Of a DNA stretch of 64,000 bases, positions 8,519 to 20,128 are shown one piece after another. The translations under genes and the position numbers were made by a program. Numbering within the stretch: the first letter of the stretch is position 1; each line of letters opens with the position of its first letter. Source of the stretch: Candidatus Thalassarchaeaceae archaeon (GTDB lineage Archaea > Thermoplasmatota > Poseidoniia > Poseidoniales > Thalassarchaeaceae); contig JALRLV010000003.1 of assembly GCA_023268715.1 (NCBI GenBank), positions 62,321 to 126,320 on the forward strand, in the 5' to 3' direction. The notes below the pieces were generated by a model. That model ran no database searches, was not told the origin of the DNA, and saw only the letters and a program-made list of their open reading frames with translations.

Positions 8519-9970
<1,452 letters not shown>

Positions 9971-9973
9971 AAA

Positions 9974-10720
9974 TTAGATACTTTCTTCATGCATAGAGGA
10001 AAGGAATCTTTGTAGTCGCTCAGTCTTTGGCTGGTTGATTATGGAAGATGGACCTTCTTCGGCTACCTTACCCTGATCCAAATAGACAATTCTGTCAGCA
10101 ACATCCCTAGCGAAATTAATTTCGTGAGTGACAATAACCATCGTCATCCCCTCATCAGCTAACCCACGAATAGTCTGCAGAACAGAACCGATTAACTCTG
10201 GGTCCAGTGCGCTTGTAGGTTCATCAAATAAGATGACTTCTGGCTTCATTGCTAAAGCTCTGGCAATCGCAACGCGTTGCTTCTGTCCGCCTGACAGATT
10301 ACCGGGATAGGCATCTATTCTGTCTAGCATATCTACTCTATCTAGCACCTCTAAAGCTACTTCTTCTGCCTCCGCTTTGCTCATTCCGCGAACGTGCCGT
10401 AAACCCAGAGTTACATTGTCCAATACTTTCAAGTGAGAAAATAATTCGAATGACTGGAATACCATTCCTATTCTACTTCTCACATCGTTTACATTTGCAA
10501 TAGGTGTGTTAACCTGGTCCCCTCTTAGCTCGATTACTCCATCAGTGGGCTCAATCAATCTGTTTATACATCGAAGAACAGTAGATTTTCCTGAACCCGA
10601 AGATCCAATAATCGCTACTGACTCACCCTCATGAACATCGAAGTCGACTCCTCTTACTGCATGAACTCCTCCGGGATAGATCTTGTGTAAATCACGGATT
10701 GAGAGAACTACATCATCCAT
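9974..10720 (-). CDS. amino-acid ABC transporter ATP-binding protein (GlnQ-like)
   Basis: Walker A GSSGSGKST, signature LSGGQKQRVAIARAL, Walker B VILFDEPTSALDPE. Confidence 0.95.
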   Translation of the reverse strand: MDDVVLSIRDLHKIYPGGVHAVRGVDFDVHEGESVAIIGSSGSGKSTVLRCINRLIEPTDGVIELRGDQVNTPIANVNDVRSRIGMVFQSFELFSHLKVLDNVTLGLRHVRGMSKAEAEEVALEVLDRVDMLDRIDAYPGNLSGGQKQRVAIARALAMKPEVILFDEPTSALDPELIGSVLQTIRGLADEGMTMVIVTHEINFARDVADRIVYLDQGKVAEEGPSSIINQPKTERLQRFLSSMHEESI

Positions 10721-12769
10721 TCAAGCACCCCCTGAAATTCCCAATCCTGGGATTTTCGTTTTTTCCTCTAATCTTCGAAGAAGTAAGGCAAGTGTCCAGG
10801 TGACTACAAAATAAGATATCATAACTAATCCCCAGGCTGAAAATATTTGGAAAGTAGTCGCAATCATCAGTTTCCCTTGTCTTGAAAGTTCAGAATAACC
10901 AATTACCATAGCAAGTGACGAATTCAATACCAAATTCACCATTTCATTACCTATTGGTGGGATACAAATTCTAATTGCTTGTGGCATAATTACTAATCTC
11001 ATTGTCCCCAAATAGGTTAATCCGATGCTTCTACCTGCTTCCATTTGACCAGATGGGATAGCAGCTATAGCACCTCGAATTGTTTCACATTGGTATGCTC
11101 CTGAATTAAGTCCGAGAGTGAAAATCGCACTAAGGAAGGTCCGGTCACCGTAGAAGAAGTAGTCAATTCCATCAACACCCGGATCCCCAAATGTACCTTC
11201 CATAACTTGTTGAATCCTCATACCTAATCTGAGTCCGAAGTGAATGAACATAAATTGTACAATTAGCGGAGTATTTCGAAAGAAATCTGTATAGACGGTT
11301 GCTAACGAATTCAGTGGTCTAACCTTGAACAAAGGTCCTGCCAATTTTTCATCTGCTAAAATAAATTGAATTGATATAACTAATATTCCGATTCCGAGAC
11401 CAAACATTGCAAATCCTCTTGGGTCTCCAACAGGAGTGAAAATGTACTCTATACCATTCAATTGTAATTCAGGGAACCTTTTCAGGCCAGAGTAGATTAA
11501 CCACAATGCAAACACCGAACAAATCACTCCAAATCCTTTAATTTGAGATGTAGAAAATCGTTCTAGTAGATTTTTGAGAGATGTGGGTGCTGTTTTCAAC
11601 ATCGCTAGAATTACTCCGATAACAAATCCAAACATTATTCCGAAAATTACTATTTTTACTGTGGCAATAAATCCAGCTAGAAGCATATCATCTGCATATT
11701 CTACGAATTCTCCAAAGTTATTATAATCCGGAATTTCGAAGCCAATTTCTTCATTTTCTCCTGCTCTGTCTGTAATCAGGATAACTCCTGAATCACCGAC
11801 AACTATTCCTAATACGTAGTCGAACATTGCATGGTCATTGAACGAGGTATTTACTCCTGGAGGTAGTAAATTCCTTTCAACATTCAAGCCTTGGTCAAGA
11901 CTTAACCCAAGAAATCCATCAGGCCCAGTGAATAGAATTCTTGAGGATGAGATTACATCAATAGAAGAAAGGTCAATTCCAAGTGTTGTATTGTATCCCG
12001 CGGATTCAATTTCTCTTAATTTCCATTCAAAACCACCAGGGGATGTTGAATAGAGTATTTGTCCAGAATCACTTACTGCGAACATTCGGTAAGGATTGAA
12101 GTAAGATACGGAAACGATTGATGATTCTGGGTCTGGAGCCTCTCTGTAATCCCATGTTGTACCTCCATCATCTGTGGCTAGGATTGTCCCAGAATCACCA
12201 ACAGCCAATCCGTCTTCAGCACCGTTGAAGTCAACATCGTGCAGGTTTTCAGTGAAACTTGTTGTCCTATTCCACCAAGTCTGTTCAGTATATTGCCAGA
12301 TAGAACCTGCATTTCCTACAATTATCAGGGATTGTTCTCCTGTTAAGGCAATACTCTTCATTCTTGCTTGGCTAGAATCGATAACGTTCCACTCAGATTC
12401 CAAGCTATTTTTCATGTAGATTATTCCTTCGGAAGACAATACAGCCATCGAGTCATCATACGAATCTGCTGAGATTAAATCAACATCTCCTAAATTAGTA
12501 TGATTTTGCCATGTTGCGCCAGAGTCATCGCTAAATCTAACGATTCCAGAATCTCCGAATACCCAGATTCTTTCTCCATGGATGACTGCCGAATTTAGGT
12601 CGCGCTCCGTCCAACTTTCGGCTTCGTTCCATCCAGTAATTGTACCTTGTCCGCTTGATTGAGGAATTGAGCAAACTAACAATATAGTGACTAGAATTAA
12701 AACTCTAGACTTAGAGTCAATTGATGACCAAGAGAAAATTCTCTCGATACCCGGAGAGGCTCTATTCAC
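10721..12769 (-). CDS. N-terminal YCF48/BNR-like beta-propeller fused to a GlnP/HisM-type ABC permease
   Basis: Signal/TM VLILVTILLVCSIPQSSG; repeats GDSGIVRFSDDSGATW, GDSGTILATDDGGTTW, GDSGVILITD; permease segment with FRNTPLIVQFMFIHFGL and EAGRSIGLTYLGTMRLVIMPQAIR. Confidence 0.93.
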   Translation of the reverse strand: MNRASPGIERIFSWSSIDSKSRVLILVTILLVCSIPQSSGQGTITGWNEAESWTERDLNSAVIHGERIWVFGDSGIVRFSDDSGATWQNHTNLGDVDLISADSYDDSMAVLSSEGIIYMKNSLESEWNVIDSSQARMKSIALTGEQSLIIVGNAGSIWQYTEQTWWNRTTSFTENLHDVDFNGAEDGLAVGDSGTILATDDGGTTWDYREAPDPESSIVSVSYFNPYRMFAVSDSGQILYSTSPGGFEWKLREIESAGYNTTLGIDLSSIDVISSSRILFTGPDGFLGLSLDQGLNVERNLLPPGVNTSFNDHAMFDYVLGIVVGDSGVILITDRAGENEEIGFEIPDYNNFGEFVEYADDMLLAGFIATVKIVIFGIMFGFVIGVILAMLKTAPTSLKNLLERFSTSQIKGFGVICSVFALWLIYSGLKRFPELQLNGIEYIFTPVGDPRGFAMFGLGIGILVISIQFILADEKLAGPLFKVRPLNSLATVYTDFFRNTPLIVQFMFIHFGLRLGMRIQQVMEGTFGDPGVDGIDYFFYGDRTFLSAIFTLGLNSGAYQCETIRGAIAAIPSGQMEAGRSIGLTYLGTMRLVIMPQAIRICIPPIGNEMVNLVLNSSLAMVIGYSELSRQGKLMIATTFQIFSAWGLVMISYFVVTWTLALLLRRLEEKTKIPGLGISGGA

Positions 12770-12822: not shown

Positions 12823-12897
12823 TTATTTTATCGTTATCAAAAATAAGAGCATTAGTATTAGCAATGTTCAAGGTTGTCTTTCAATGGCCTTTGTTGT

Positions 12898-13809
12898 ATG
12901 GGCGAGATGATTTACCACGGTAAGGTAAAGCAAGTTTGGAGTACAGATGATCCGGATATAATTGAATTTAGGTATACTGACCAAATTAGCGTTTTCGACC
13001 AAATTATACCTAGCCTAATTCCTCGAAAGGGCGAGTCATTAAACAGAACCTCTTGTCACTGGTTCAAACTTGTTGAAGAAGCAGGAATTTGTGATACCCA
13101 TGTTATCGAAATGAATGCACCCGATAGAGTGTTAGCGCGAAGATTCGATGTTATTCGTGAGCCTGGAGCGATATCGCGAGACCAAGAAAATGTCTTCGTC
13201 CCATTGGAAGTGATTTGTCGACATTATCTTGCAGGTAGCGGTTGGAGAAGATATGCGAGGGGTGACGCCCCTGCTGAAGAATTTGGATTTGAACCCGGAA
13301 CCATACTAGAGGAAGGGGTAAAACTTCCAAAACCTTACCTTGAGGTCTCGACCAAATTTGAAAAATTCGATAGATTACTCGATAGAAAGGAGGCATTGCA
13401 AATATCCAATCTCAGTGACGACGAATTTGACTCTATTCTCGAAATTGTTGTCAAGGTTGACGAAATAATCGAAACTGAAGCCGCAAAGCGGGGATTAATC
13501 CATGTCGATGGAAAGAAAGAATTCGCCTTGGGCGAGGGCAGAGTTCCGGTCTTGGTGGATTCATTCGGAACCTTAGATGAAGACAGATGGTGGGATGCTG
13601 AAGCATATACTAGTGGAGAGATTGTTCAACTTTCGAAAGAATTCGTCAGGGGCCATTATCTAGAGACTGGTCACCACTCTGAACTTTACGCGGCGAGAAA
13701 GGCAGGTACTGAAGAGCCACCAATTCCTGCTTTACCACAGTCTATTATCGATCAAACCTCAACTCTTTATGCAGATATGTTTGAAAGATTAACAGGTCAA
13801 GAATTCTAA
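12898..13809 (+). CDS. purC: phosphoribosylaminoimidazolesuccinocarboxamide synthase
   Basis: IYHGKVKQVW, DQISVFDQIIPSLIPRKGESLNRTSCHWF, KFEKFDR, VDSFGTLDEDRWW; start chosen at ATG 12898. Confidence 0.94.
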   Translation: MGEMIYHGKVKQVWSTDDPDIIEFRYTDQISVFDQIIPSLIPRKGESLNRTSCHWFKLVEEAGICDTHVIEMNAPDRVLARRFDVIREPGAISRDQENVFVPLEVICRHYLAGSGWRRYARGDAPAEEFGFEPGTILEEGVKLPKPYLEVSTKFEKFDRLLDRKEALQISNLSDDEFDSILEIVVKVDEIIETEAAKRGLIHVDGKKEFALGEGRVPVLVDSFGTLDEDRWWDAEAYTSGEIVQLSKEFVRGHYLETGHHSELYAARKAGTEEPPIPALPQSIIDQTSTLYADMFERLTGQEF

Positions 13810-14449: not shown

Positions 14450-17400
14450 TTAGTCGTCGCCGGTCAAACGCTTCAACCTGCTCTCAAAGTCGTCCAATTG
14501 TCGTTCAACGACTTCTGGAGTATCCTCTACAACTTGACTGGTGACATGCTCCTCATTTTCAATTATTGTATTTTCTTGAATATTTTCTCCGATCAAATTT
14601 TCAGAAGGCACAGGTGGTTTTGGAAGCTTAGTTTCTTGCTTTTTCTTACTAAGGATGGACTCAGTCATATCCAATAATTTCTTCCTTTCCCGCTGATTGT
14701 AAAGGATCCATGTCAATGTAAGTGCCAATGAAATTACAAGAATTGCCGAGCCAATTGCCGTAAACCATTCAAAGCCTGAATCATTATTTACAGAACCGCC
14801 AGAAAGAATCAATTTTGCTTCATTGTCGGTTGGATTGGAATCTACATCCCAAGGGAACTTACATTGCACCGTCACAATGATTTCCGTTCCATCTGGTGCA
14901 TCTTCTAAAGATGGGCGGTCCAACTTTGGTTCTGGAGGATAAGTTCCTGAGAAATCGATTTCATGGGTTGCTGAATGGCTGCCAGCGATTACTAAAATGC
15001 TACAATCGGCATCAGTCAGCAGGTGGTGATACTCTCTTTTTGTTAATACCTTGATTTTTTGAGTATCTCCTTGACCATCAAGTTCAAGAGCAACCAAACC
15101 AACGTTCCAATCATTTCGACGGATTTCAAATTCAGTCTCATCTGATGCAATAACAATTCCTCTTTCATCCAATAGCCGAATGACTAGACTCCTCATTCCC
15201 GGCTGTGGATTCCATGAAGTAGCACTTAGGTTAACCTGGCCCGAAGTTGTGTTGGCATCCAAATTACCTTCAGTTGAGTCTAACATTTTTCCTTCATCGT
15301 CAATTAGAATTACAGTATAGCTGAATGGTTGGGTTCCATTGGCAACTGTACATTCTGCCCTCACTGAGCCGATAGCTCCTGTTATTGAGCAGGTAGCATA
15401 CCTAAGCGCAGGTTCGATGACATATGCTGTGTATGGTAAGACTGTGTTGGAATCCACATTAACTTGAGTGCCAGTAGACGCTGTGTTGGCTTGCCAGACC
15501 CAACCACCTTGCAAATCCCATTGTAGAATTGACTGAACATCATCAACAACTGAGGAATCTGGTGAAGTTCCGTGTATGTCTAGCAGAACACTATCTCCCT
15601 GCATCGATATAATCACAGGTGAAGATGCCCATGAATGATCTTCGTATTGTGTGTCGAGAGAAATTTCCCTTTGATTACCTGCTTCATCTTGTGCCAAGAT
15701 TCTGATGGTTCTAGATTCCCCCTGCCAATCTGAGGATGGAATTACTTCTAATGGGACTCCTGTGATTTCTCCCACTCCAATAACCACCTGAGTAGGTCCT
15801 GAAACTTGCCAACCTTGAGGTAGGCTAAGTACCTCAAGTGAAATTGTTGTTGGCGCATTACCCTGATTATGTAATTCTGCATGGGGATACCCTCCACTGT
15901 CTGAAACAATCCAATTCCCACTGCCTTGAAGGCTGAATTCATGAATCTCTGCAACTCTAAGCGGCAATGTAATGGTGGCCTCACTGCTACCATCTCCTTC
16001 CCTTAATCTAACCAATAACTCAACGGTTCTTCCGTGCCTAGCAGTAGAGGCGGGCGTGATTTGTAAATCTAGAGTTGCGGTACTTCCAGGGTCTAAGACT
16101 GGTAATTCATCAGGTGTGTCAACTTCCCATCCAATTTCTCCGTCCACCTGTACGCTTACGTATGGACGAGTTGGCGAATTTCCTTCCTGAACAACAGTTA
16201 GTGAAACCGTAGACCCAGACGGGTCAATCTCCAAATCCGCATTAGATGCTATGGCATTCCAGCCTGCTACATGGGAAACTTCTATTGTGAATGTAAAGGT
16301 GTGAATTTCGACATCAAATGCCACTATTGAAGCACTAACTTGGTAAGTTGTTCCATTCCAAGCACCAAAAGGTACTTCCACTACCAAATAAAGTGTAGTG
16401 GACCTGTTTACCGGGACCGATGATACATTATCACCAAATATGTTCCAATCGGTTACTGTATCCGCACCTTGGTGATTGAGCAGGCCGGAAGCGGATACTG
16501 AAAGGTCGTCGTCAAGATTTCCAATATTTGTTGCATAAATTTCGACGGCGAAGGAATCACCGGGGCTGATTGCAAATGCATTGTCCTCGACATCACCAAT
16601 TGCAGAATAAAGTACTACCTCCCAACGATGATCTTGTCTTGCTTCAAGCGTCAGGATGACTGAATCTGATATCGTTGAATTTCCTTCAGAGGTCATGAAT
16701 AACTCAATACTAACTGGAATTCTGGCGGGGGTTGTATCTGGTAAAATAATCTCAACTGGTAGAGTCCTCAAACTTCCCGCGCTTAGAGTCACTCTTGAGT
16801 TACTGAATGTGACAGATATACCAGGGTCTTCTGTAAGATAATCATCCAATATTACCGCGTGAGACATGACGTAGGTATCTTCACCATTTCCAGGATTGTA
16901 CAACCGAACCGTCGCAGGTATAGATTCCTCCACCTCTACTAAATGAGGCGATTCGGTAGGAGATACCAATGTAAGTGAGGTCCTGTAAATTTGCATGACC
17001 TCAACGGATAATCGAAGCGAATAATCCGAACCAAGGCTACTAGAATCTGTGAATGAATGGAAAGCAGGAGGAGCATCGACAGGAAGTTCTACGGACAATA
17101 TGCCACTTACTCTTGAACTAGGAATTCCTTGCATCGTAATATCATCTCCATTTATCGATAATGAACCAGAACCCGACCAAAACCAATCTTCTATTCCCAT
17201 TCCAGCGTCACTAATTTTCCAATCTAAAACTCCAGAAGAGGCTGGAAGGTCTGCGATAACATTCCATTGCAATGTATTCTCAGGCATGCTCCTCTGGTGA
17301 TTGGTTTCGGTTACAACACTTGTAGCGATGAATTGTAATTGCACGGTTTGACAGGTTTCCTCCTCCCCGCTCCCAACACACATTGTAAGCGGGGTAGTAA

Positions 17401-20128
17401 CGCTATCTCCTAGAGATACATCTGTTGGTACATTTAGTCTCGCAGAGATTATTTTTTCTTCTCCAGCAGATAGAGTTAATGCGGGTATTTCATTTCCAAT
17501 TTCATCGTACAACGTTAAGCTATTTTCAGCAGAATCCCAAGATGTACTGTCCCAGAACATTGAGATCGAATTTTCATCTGCATTCCCTAGGTTTTCCACG
17601 ATTAGCCATGCTTTTGCAGAGTCCCCAATCAGACCATAGCCGCTACTGACGGTAGTCCCCGCCGGCCCTCTGATTGACAATCCACGTGTACGGTTTGCCT
17701 CGACTGGTAAAACTCCGCTAACGCTTACATTCTGATCTTCGTCTAGGGTAAGCGTTAGCGAAAGATATCCTGCATCTGAACCATCCGCATTTATTGGCGC
17801 GTTAATCCTAAGAGAGGGAGTCCAAGTTCCATCTGCAGAAATTTGAATGGACGTAATCCCTCCTGGTGTTTCATCACTCCAGGTCCACCCTTCTGGCAAA
17901 TTACTAGCGTCGACGTTCATACTCCAAACACCGGCAAGACGGCCAGTTGAGCGAACAGTTGGTTGACCAATGGTTGATTCTCCTGGATTAACTCTAACAG
18001 GATTCGTAGGCATCTCAAATGTGGCATTGTAAGGTGGCACAATCGTCAGAGTGGTCGATTGTGCATCGTTGTCATAACGAGATTGAGTTACATTTTGGTA
18101 TGGGTCGAGTACCAATGCGAAATTATATTCTCCAAGTCCACCTGACCATCCGACAGAGAAGGATTCGAACCCTGCTGAACCTGTGGGGTCAGTCGGTTCT
18201 AAGCTGCTAGCACGATGGCGTGCTATCTCTATTCCATCAGCGTAAAGCACTGCGTCTACAGCCTCATCGATTTCAATAGTTCCTGCATTTTCAAAGAAGG
18301 CTGTAATCGTAACTTCTTCGTTAGGCTTAGGTGCACTTGGATTGAATTCTATTGCACGCCCATCTAGCAATGGCCTAACGTCGGCAAGAGCCGTAGAGAT
18401 TACTGTATCACCCAGAACTATATCCAATGTTGCGTCTCCATCGAGGTCCGCTAAGGCTGGAGATGACCAGGTTCTGTGATCAACTTCGACCTCATTGTTC
18501 CAATTGTCGTTAATTGCAGCTTGAGTCCCAGTATCTCCGTCCCAGGCCCAAAGAGTTCTTCCATATGCAACTAACAATTCCGGCGCTCCGCTACCATCAA
18601 TATCCATCCAGACGGGTTGTGCAACTGCAATTTCGTCATTAAAGGCCCCGCTAGATTGCTCTAAGTCATTGTACCATTCAATTTGAGGGTTATTTCCCGA
18701 AACATCATGGCAGCCAGCATGTCCATGTCTTGCGGTAGTCTCCTGATACCAAGTCACCCAACAGACTCTATCGATTACACTATCGTCATCGGTATCTATT
18801 GCAATTGGTGGGGCGTCAGTGAAACCATTTACTGCCTCAAACGACCAAATTTCCGAACCATCATCAATCTCTAATCCTCTAAATTCTGCACCATCAACGC
18901 TGCTTGAACCATCTGCGTCTGTGGGTATTGAAATAATCATCTCAGGCGTGGAATCAGAATCTAAGTTAGCAATAACCGGCCCTGGCAGTCTAATGTGAGG
19001 TACGTCAGTATCGCCATCTAAATTTGCTAGGCTGAGAGACCATAGTTGGTCACCTGACACAGAATTTAGTTTCCAAACCCACATCGCTCCACTGGACGCT
19101 TCGGTCGTCGTGAGTAAAATATAGCCAGTTTGGTCGTCAACTTGAGCAAATGATGGATCTGAGGGGTGGCTTCCATCCGCTAACATGGATTGCCACATTG
19201 GTGTAGGCACTCCGTTCGCTCCAAGGGGCAGGGCCAAGACTACGGGATTTTCGTTATTATCGATAACTGCAAGGACCAATTCAGCGTCTCCGTCCAAATC
19301 AAGATCCGCTAGCAAGGGTTGAGTTGTGGGTCTATGCCCTCCTAACCAAGAAGAGGTATAGGGTCCATTCGTACTTCCTATCTGCAGGTCATCGTCAGTG
19401 TAGCTCCACAGCAACTCTCCGCTTTTTGAGCCACCCGGTGACCAACCGGTTACTGAGCAATGAAGTACAGGAGAATAAGCATCGACATACAAAGCACCAC
19501 CTGCGTCGTAAACAATTATGACTTCCTGCATTCCATCATCATCAAGATCTACAATTACTGGTGAAGCCTTGATTATCTCTGTGGCACCCAAATCTACCTC
19601 CCAAGCCAAATCAGCATCTTCACCTTCGATAATTTTCACAACACTGTGATCGTTACCTCCGACTACTTCGGTTTGGATTAGCACAATGAATAAGGAATCT
19701 CCTCCACATCTTTCCTCGGCTGCCTCATCAGTAACAATTTGTTGACTAAAATCTGCAACTGGGGTTCCGAGTGCGTCCGTGCCTATCGAATAGGTGCCAT
19801 ATTCCCAATTTATCACTGGGTCTACAATAGAGGATAATTCCGTTGCATTGTTCGGCGAATCAGTTCCGGCGCCACCGGTTGGGGAATGGAGAGGTCCTTC
19901 AGAGGTCCTTTGGGAAATTCTTCCAGGCTGGGGCCAAGGCTGTCCTCCATCAATCCAAGGCTCTACAGTTCCTGTGAAGGAGGAATCATTCTCTAAATCG
20001 TCCAATTTCAGGAAATTATTTGGCTTAGTCATGAGCATAGGAGAAAGCGAAAGTAGTAACAAACAGACTACTGCGAGAGAAGCGTTCTGCTTCTTTGAGG
20101 GTTTGAAACTCGGACTCTGCATGCTCAC
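14450..20128 (-). CDS. 1892-aa surface protein: signal peptide, FG-GAP/VCBS-like repeats, beta-sandwich (CARDB/NEW-like) domains, C-terminal TM and cytoplasmic tail
   Basis: N-terminal ASLAVVCLLLLSLSPMLM; DLDDDGMQEVII, DLDLDGDAELVLAVID, DIDGSGAPELLVAYG, DLDGDATLDIVLGD; TM AIGSAILVISLALTLTWILY. Confidence 0.92.
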   Translation of the reverse strand: MSMQSPSFKPSKKQNASLAVVCLLLLSLSPMLMTKPNNFLKLDDLENDSSFTGTVEPWIDGGQPWPQPGRISQRTSEGPLHSPTGGAGTDSPNNATELSSIVDPVINWEYGTYSIGTDALGTPVADFSQQIVTDEAAEERCGGDSLFIVLIQTEVVGGNDHSVVKIIEGEDADLAWEVDLGATEIIKASPVIVDLDDDGMQEVIIVYDAGGALYVDAYSPVLHCSVTGWSPGGSKSGELLWSYTDDDLQIGSTNGPYTSSWLGGHRPTTQPLLADLDLDGDAELVLAVIDNNENPVVLALPLGANGVPTPMWQSMLADGSHPSDPSFAQVDDQTGYILLTTTEASSGAMWVWKLNSVSGDQLWSLSLANLDGDTDVPHIRLPGPVIANLDSDSTPEMIISIPTDADGSSSVDGAEFRGLEIDDGSEIWSFEAVNGFTDAPPIAIDTDDDSVIDRVCWVTWYQETTARHGHAGCHDVSGNNPQIEWYNDLEQSSGAFNDEIAVAQPVWMDIDGSGAPELLVAYGRTLWAWDGDTGTQAAINDNWNNEVEVDHRTWSSPALADLDGDATLDIVLGDTVISTALADVRPLLDGRAIEFNPSAPKPNEEVTITAFFENAGTIEIDEAVDAVLYADGIEIARHRASSLEPTDPTGSAGFESFSVGWSGGLGEYNFALVLDPYQNVTQSRYDNDAQSTTLTIVPPYNATFEMPTNPVRVNPGESTIGQPTVRSTGRLAGVWSMNVDASNLPEGWTWSDETPGGITSIQISADGTWTPSLRINAPINADGSDAGYLSLTLTLDEDQNVSVSGVLPVEANRTRGLSIRGPAGTTVSSGYGLIGDSAKAWLIVENLGNADENSISMFWDSTSWDSAENSLTLYDEIGNEIPALTLSAGEEKIISARLNVPTDVSLGDSVTTPLTMCVGSGEEETCQTVQLQFIATSVVTETNHQRSMPENTLQWNVIADLPASSGVLDWKISDAGMGIEDWFWSGSGSLSINGDDITMQGIPSSRVSGILSVELPVDAPPAFHSFTDSSSLGSDYSLRLSVEVMQIYRTSLTLVSPTESPHLVEVEESIPATVRLYNPGNGEDTYVMSHAVILDDYLTEDPGISVTFSNSRVTLSAGSLRTLPVEIILPDTTPARIPVSIELFMTSEGNSTISDSVILTLEARQDHRWEVVLYSAIGDVEDNAFAISPGDSFAVEIYATNIGNLDDDLSVSASGLLNHQGADTVTDWNIFGDNVSSVPVNRSTTLYLVVEVPFGAWNGTTYQVSASIVAFDVEIHTFTFTIEVSHVAGWNAIASNADLEIDPSGSTVSLTVVQEGNSPTRPYVSVQVDGEIGWEVDTPDELPVLDPGSTATLDLQITPASTARHGRTVELLVRLREGDGSSEATITLPLRVAEIHEFSLQGSGNWIVSDSGGYPHAELHNQGNAPTTISLEVLSLPQGWQVSGPTQVVIGVGEITGVPLEVIPSSDWQGESRTIRILAQDEAGNQREISLDTQYEDHSWASSPVIISMQGDSVLLDIHGTSPDSSVVDDVQSILQWDLQGGWVWQANTASTGTQVNVDSNTVLPYTAYVIEPALRYATCSITGAIGSVRAECTVANGTQPFSYTVILIDDEGKMLDSTEGNLDANTTSGQVNLSATSWNPQPGMRSLVIRLLDERGIVIASDETEFEIRRNDWNVGLVALELDGQGDTQKIKVLTKREYHHLLTDADCSILVIAGSHSATHEIDFSGTYPPEPKLDRPSLEDAPDGTEIIVTVQCKFPWDVDSNPTDNEAKLILSGGSVNNDSGFEWFTAIGSAILVISLALTLTWILYNQRERKKLLDMTESILSKKKQETKLPKPPVPSENLIGENIQENTIIENEEHVTSQVVEDTPEVVERQLDDFESRLKRLTGDD

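Follow-up and report, generated by a model that had tools for sequence, protein, structure and literature searches.

The window, the whole 64,000-nucleotide stretch analyzed here, is G000:C33:62321-126320 in a 1.55-Mb archaeal assembly. On its minus strand we find a single unbroken open reading frame (ORF) that begins with GTG and runs for 682 aa with no stops, joining a beta-propeller to an amino-acid ABC permease as an earlier note on this sequence, which gave no strand, had claimed. The stop codon of this fusion is abutted by a gene for a GlnQ-like ATPase, the immediate follower that the same note described, and the pair is flanked by genes for glutamate dehydrogenase and SAICAR synthetase. 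The features are:

10721..12769, minus strand: propeller-permease fusion, 682 aa (ORF, Pfam and NCBIfam matches; one ORF in 78 distinct relatives)
12650..12769, minus strand: residues 1-40, N-terminal extension and putative signal peptide or signal anchor (hydrophobic VLILVTILLVCSI; model helix at 19-33)
11744..12649, minus strand: residues 41-342, seven-bladed Ycf48-like beta-propeller, predicted extracellular (PF14870, pLDDT ~90, Foldseek, dN/dS 0.12-0.15)
11594..11716, minus strand: residues 352-392, permease TM1, GlnP TM1-like (low-confidence model helix; conserved in MGIIb and the second order)
11354..11551, minus strand: residues 407-472, two-helix insertion between TM1 and TM2 (in MGIIb, not in the second order)
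10754..11329, minus strand: residues 481-672, permease core with EAA-type loop QMEAGRSIGLTYLGTMRLVIMPQA (PF00528, TIGR01726 and GlnP models; mean conservation 0.82; dN/dS 0.005-0.044)
9974..10720, minus strand: GlnQ-like ATPase, 248 aa (Walker A GSSGSGKST, signature LSGGQKQR and Walker B VILFDEPTSALDPE, read in the sequence; PF00005)
8606..9970, plus strand: NADP glutamate dehydrogenase (GDH), flanking the fusion/ATPase pair
12874..13809, plus strand: SAICAR synthetase (purC), flanking the pair on the other side

Searches against family models identify both halves of the fusion. In Pfam, PF14870 (PSII_BNR/Ycf48) matches residues 162-250 (E = 1.4e-13; 51.3 bits, cut-off 27) and PF00528 (BPD_transp_1) matches residues 477-665 (E = 3.8e-16; 59.8 bits, cut-off 26.4), while SBP_bac_3 has no match within the fusion. 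The NCBIfam model TIGR01726 (HEQRo_perm_3TM) scores 63.7 bits against a cut-off of 42.2, which together with PF00528 bears out the earlier reading of a GlnP/HisM permease. Below equivalog level lie the GlnP and cystine permease models of NCBIfam on the fusion (E of ~1e-38 to 1e-41), the GlnQ model on the ATPase (E = 4.6e-85) and, far under its cut-off of 326, the Ycf48 equivalog NF010237 on the fusion (44.1 bits). Because of this family membership, the fusion and its ATPase very likely form a polar amino-acid (HisM/GlnP) type-I ABC importer, a function that we regard as well supported by sequence.

An AlphaFold2 model of the fusion gives residues 41-342 a pLDDT of ~90 and seven blades, as counted from the DSSP string, and its N-terminal strands close the propeller ring. 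The best PDB matches of the propeller in Foldseek are Ycf48 structures (E = 8.6e-16; TM-score on the target 0.75), and the roughly 300 aa of YCF48/BNR-like repeats described in the earlier note correspond to this seven-bladed domain. For the permease, the model is of low quality (pLDDT ~45), and its packing there is left uninterpreted. GlnP-type permeases start outside the cell, in agreement with a signal peptide followed by an extracellular propeller, and from this agreement we infer that the propeller lies outside; the basic loop after TM1 (KTAPTSLKNLLERF) fits a position inside. Genera such as g5, g6 and g11 have a far longer two-helix insertion, and their fusions reach 867 aa.

The fusion is a conserved architecture. 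Both halves are present in 105 of the 106 long ORFs that match the query, 78 of them distinct, and these come from independent assemblies. Across the window's genus the fusion is a single ORF at about 61-90% identity; it also occurs in genera g5, g6, g8, g9 and g11 of the Thalassarchaeaceae (MGIIb) and in a second order of the class (family f3), which is probably MGIII given its class membership. The second-order fusion is compact (606-619 aa) and lacks the two-helix insertion. In addition, five genomes that are probably single-cell ones, judging by the style of their record names, carry the full-length fusion with its adjacent ATPase (L132, L135, L159, L163, L167). Taken together, the two-half ORFs, the independent assemblies and the probable single-cell genomes rule out in practice an assembly chimera or a frameshift. 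We also considered recoding of TGA codons for the matches in g5 and rejected it, as the match overruns the natural stop a few residues before the end of the query; the 820-aa ORF L050 (g5) ends at query residue 678. The ATPase gene immediately follows the fusion at 77 of the 80 loci listed by a contig scan that used permease-derived patterns and therefore reaches close relatives only; all 80 are Euryarchaeota, MGII, Poseidoniales or Thermoplasmatota records. In comparison with six congeners, the permease core has a dN/dS of 0.005-0.044 and the propeller one of 0.12-0.15. We conclude from these values that both halves are maintained by purifying selection, with the propeller evolving faster than the permease.

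Among 39 genomes searched, full-length PF14870 matches above cut-off are found in the fusion only, and MGIIa (family f2) has none. In a bacterial plasmid collection, 2,460 records matched but none over 80% of the query, and the matches listed are to the permease only. The closest permeases elsewhere in the phylum are unfused (223-274 aa, about 42-50% identity) and sit in operons of a substrate-binding protein (SBP), permease and ATPase (L176-L178, L183). In family f17 (Thermoplasmatota), one to four SBP domains precede the GlnP permease (L180-L182) at the place that the propeller takes in the fusion, in line with the suggestion that the propeller stands where a binding domain would. One of these chains (L181:1570-5415) is 1281 aa long, with four tandem SBP_bac_3-like domains and a GlnP permease. 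The window's own contig also encodes a separate Aap-like permease pair (L063:882-5017, G000:C33) whose members, at 802 and 576 aa, are unusually long and have many extra hydrophobic segments ahead of the permease domain.

We next consider the binding protein. The earlier note saw no separate SBP gene nearby, and this holds for the window's locus and contig: the contig has no SBP_bac_3 gene, the genome's only matches are on contig C44, and no SBP gene lies at the fusion locus in the window's genus. It does not hold for the second order, in which the divergent neighbor of the fusion encodes an SBP_bac_3 protein in five of five contigs (L168-L172), nor for the genome as a whole, since a homologous domain lies on C44. 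The second-order SBP is ~320 aa long, with a signal peptide and a C-terminal TM, and it is circularly permuted. In BLAST segments, canonical positions 32-160 align to 154-287 and 162-276 to 30-138, and a PDB profile search returns the same lobe swap. The amino-acid-binding motifs YPPF, MTKTxxR, GTT and GD are retained. A homologue in MGIIb, c16, occupies the corresponding place in 16 of the 80 loci and is absent in the window's genus. All eight aligned copies of c16 have lost the binding Arg, and most have lost other binding residues too. A fold search with a c16 model hit binding-protein and HisG folds, but TM-scores on the query were uniformly low (about 0.2-0.35), as expected of a permuted query. 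The c16 copies L042, L043, L046, L048, L052, L053, L054 and L058 are anchored and permuted, and may be pseudo-SBPs or regulators in some MGIIb genera.

In the window genome, the sequence closest to the second-order SBP is found within a different importer. A 1034-aa lipoprotein (L079:9553-12657, G000:C44) consists of an N-terminal permuted SBP_bac_3 domain followed by two Peripla_BP_6 domains; it is followed by one 1249-aa ORF, readable as a fusion of LivH and LivM, and then by LivG and LivF. Over 195 residues the N-terminal domain shares 47% identity with the second-order SBP (E ~1e-47), compared to ~25% for c16, and it keeps YPPF, MTKTxxR, GTT and the second-lobe Asp. It is cut at another point than the second-order SBP, inside lobe 1, and the two have in common the joining linker VLTDD..NTA..YP. 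The shared linker suggests that both derive from a tandemly duplicated SBP by different trimming. Together with the distribution described below, these results suggest that the binding protein for the fusion has moved onto the lipoprotein of a second importer, and we consider this assignment moderately supported.

The distribution of the domain bears on this assignment. A prediction recorded before the search was that the domain should be absent where the fusion is absent. Within MGIIb, 50 domain-bearing genomes have the fusion and one (G040) does not. Matches to the Liv protein begin at residue 1 in fusion-bearing MGIIb genera, and near residue 300 in MGIIa, in genus g10 and in the second order. 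For instance, g10 nests among fusion-bearing genera in a one-gene tree of moderate support; its GDH gene directly adjoins purC, nothing occupies the fusion site (L219-L221, L223), and the 388-aa Liv SBP lacks the family-3 domain (L216). Similarly, two genomes of the otherwise fusion-bearing g6 (G186, G294) have an unrelated gene beside purC (L217, L218) and an 800-aa Liv lipoprotein with its signal peptide kept and the domain gone (L214). The co-occurrence rests on few independent events, with about two lineages lacking both. There are counterexamples on either side. G040 has the domain but not the fusion, and four genomes (G017, G031, G153, G178), whose assemblies are 74-81% complete, have the fusion with no domain detected. 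Two further genomes with the domain and no fusion found (G004, G242) were dropped as counterexamples because the purC locus is also missing from their assemblies. In G040, a MAG of genus g4, the domain lies inside a 1285-aa ORF (L213:3855-7712, G040:C38) that combines a zinc ribbon, calcium-type repeats, the permuted SBP and LivJ domains. Over the shared part this ORF is 77% identical to the g1 lipoprotein, although the match from a sister g4 genome reaches only 49%; it could be a chimera, a contamination or a transfer.

What the propeller contributes may be read from its conservation. The conserved positions that both orders share are nearly all Gly and Trp residues of the fold, plus R209, P212 and S241, with R228 less strict, and no conserved polar pocket is evident among them. 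As a sequence pattern, this fits a scaffold better than a conserved small-ligand pocket. Since the second order has both the fusion and an intact SBP, we argue that the propeller probably did not arise as a substitute for a binding protein; the same coexistence and the scaffold-like residues favor a docking role. Of the three roles once offered for the propeller (receptor, dock for a binding protein, sensor), docking would fit best, and nothing we found speaks for a receptor or a sensor.

Based on these data, our best explanation, which we hold tentatively and just short of an even call, is that the locus encodes a type-I amino-acid importer in which a tethered SBP, probably Liv-borne in the window's genus, docks on the propeller outside the cell. 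Two copies of the fusion would form the channel, driven by two of the adjacent GlnQ-like ATPases, and with one N-terminal propeller on each channel subunit the assembled transporter would display two outside the cell. The import direction and the polar amino-acid substrate are those expected of the family. Not the propeller but a circularly permuted family-3 binding protein, tethered to the membrane, would capture the substrate; its ancestral form would be the product of the divergent neighbor gene, such as the second order has. For MGIIb, and with it the window genome, the most likely candidate is the N-terminal domain of the Liv lipoprotein, which is encoded on another contig and would deliver to the fusion. 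The propeller would then hold or orient the tethered binding protein above the channel mouth. Against this explanation, the lipoprotein sits in a Liv operon (L079), so its family-3 domain may feed only the Liv transporter; the co-occurrence events are few and the genus tree is built on one gene; and there are exceptions, namely G040 with the domain only and the four fusion-only genomes, all of them incomplete. A broader proposal, conceivable although we lean against it, is that the two importers are cross-wired: one lipoprotein, with its permuted family-3 and two LivJ-type domains, would serve two unrelated ABC transporters, and the propeller would dock a domain from a foreign operon. If so, the propeller would represent a new class of SBP-docking domain.

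The operon position of the domain and the few independent losses, with G040 as an exception, are also what one would see if the family-3 domain were an ordinary extra specificity of the Liv system, co-occurring with the fusion by shared ancestry while the fusion used some other, unrecognized binding protein. We consider this rather unlikely. Family-3 domains come from one importer family and LivHM permeases from another; in sequence, the domain resembles the second-order SBP far more closely than the degenerate local copy does; and neither lineage with a verified fusion-less locus has it.

The likeness to Ycf48 raises a different idea, that the propeller helps the permease to which it is fused to assemble or stay stable, by inserting it, protecting it or capping its outer face, and takes no part in substrate delivery. 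By analogy, the closest match in both fold and sequence is an assembly factor that binds a membrane protein, the propeller is never found apart from the permease, and the dN/dS contrast between the halves is also compatible with such a role. However, close unfused permeases in other Thermoplasmatota manage without a propeller and no photosystem-like client is expected in these archaea, making this idea improbable in our view. Still less probable is capture of the substrate (amino acids, peptides or a polymer) by the propeller itself, in place of a classical binding protein in the window's genus. The propeller does share the position of fused substrate-binding domains, and the window-genus locus has no SBP gene, but in the second order the fusion has an intact SBP beside it, the invariant propeller positions reveal no clear polar pocket, and type-I importers need an SBP to trigger the ATPase cycle. 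Finally, we find it very doubtful that the propeller tethers the transporter to an extracellular peptidase, to surface polymers or to the giant secreted neighbor for uptake at the site of release: the literature portrays MGII as degraders of protein that have extracellular peptidases (PMC6336850) and the large secreted protein gene is a conserved neighbor, yet it does not track the fusion because it is also present at fusion-less loci (L217-L223). This neighbor (window 14450-20128) encodes 1892 aa with FG-GAP, CARDB and NEW3-type matches.

If the reading of the propeller as a dock for a shared SBP is true, it would add a new kind of extracellular accessory domain to importers, and a binding protein shared with another transporter would alter uptake annotation from SBP genes alone. 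The SBPs described here would also provide a natural example of circular permutation, in which a single SBP family has been cut at two points, and of the transfer of a binding domain from one operon to another. The uncultured MGII archaea rank with the most abundant plankton of the surface ocean. Amino-acid ABC uptake via AapJ and LivK is characteristic of MGIIb (Thalassarchaeaceae) and not of MGIIa (PMC9723583, PMC6336850), and transcripts of livK and aapJ are among the most plentiful in MGIIb (PMC9723583); the word "propeller" is absent from both of these texts. The earlier note did not recognize the architecture as a known one, and our searches of the openly accessible literature found no description of a propeller-permease fusion.

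Extracellular domains fused to GlnP are known as substrate-binding domains (SBDs), as in Lactococcus GlnP (PMC8025302). Those GlnPQ fusions and the fusion described here both place a signal peptide, extracellular domain(s) and the GlnP permease in one chain, with the addition at the same end and a separate GlnQ. Here, however, the fused domain is a seven-bladed propeller and not an SBP_bac_3 domain, and the SBP is a separate, permuted and anchored protein or, as we propose, a domain of another lipoprotein. With the photosystem II assembly factor Ycf48/HCF136 (PF14870; PDB 2xbg, 5ojp, 8am5) the propeller has its sequence family and seven-bladed fold in common, but Ycf48 is a separate protein in phototrophs whereas this propeller is fused to an archaeal permease. 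Lastly, a permuted SBP is known in one sugar-binding case, Tp0684/MglB-2 of Treponema pallidum (PMC4990184), which shares with ours a divergent, circularly permuted topology. Tp0684/MglB-2 binds glucose, while the SBPs here are of the family-3 amino-acid type by sequence, are anchored at the C-terminus or fused to LivJ-type domains, and have two different cut points.
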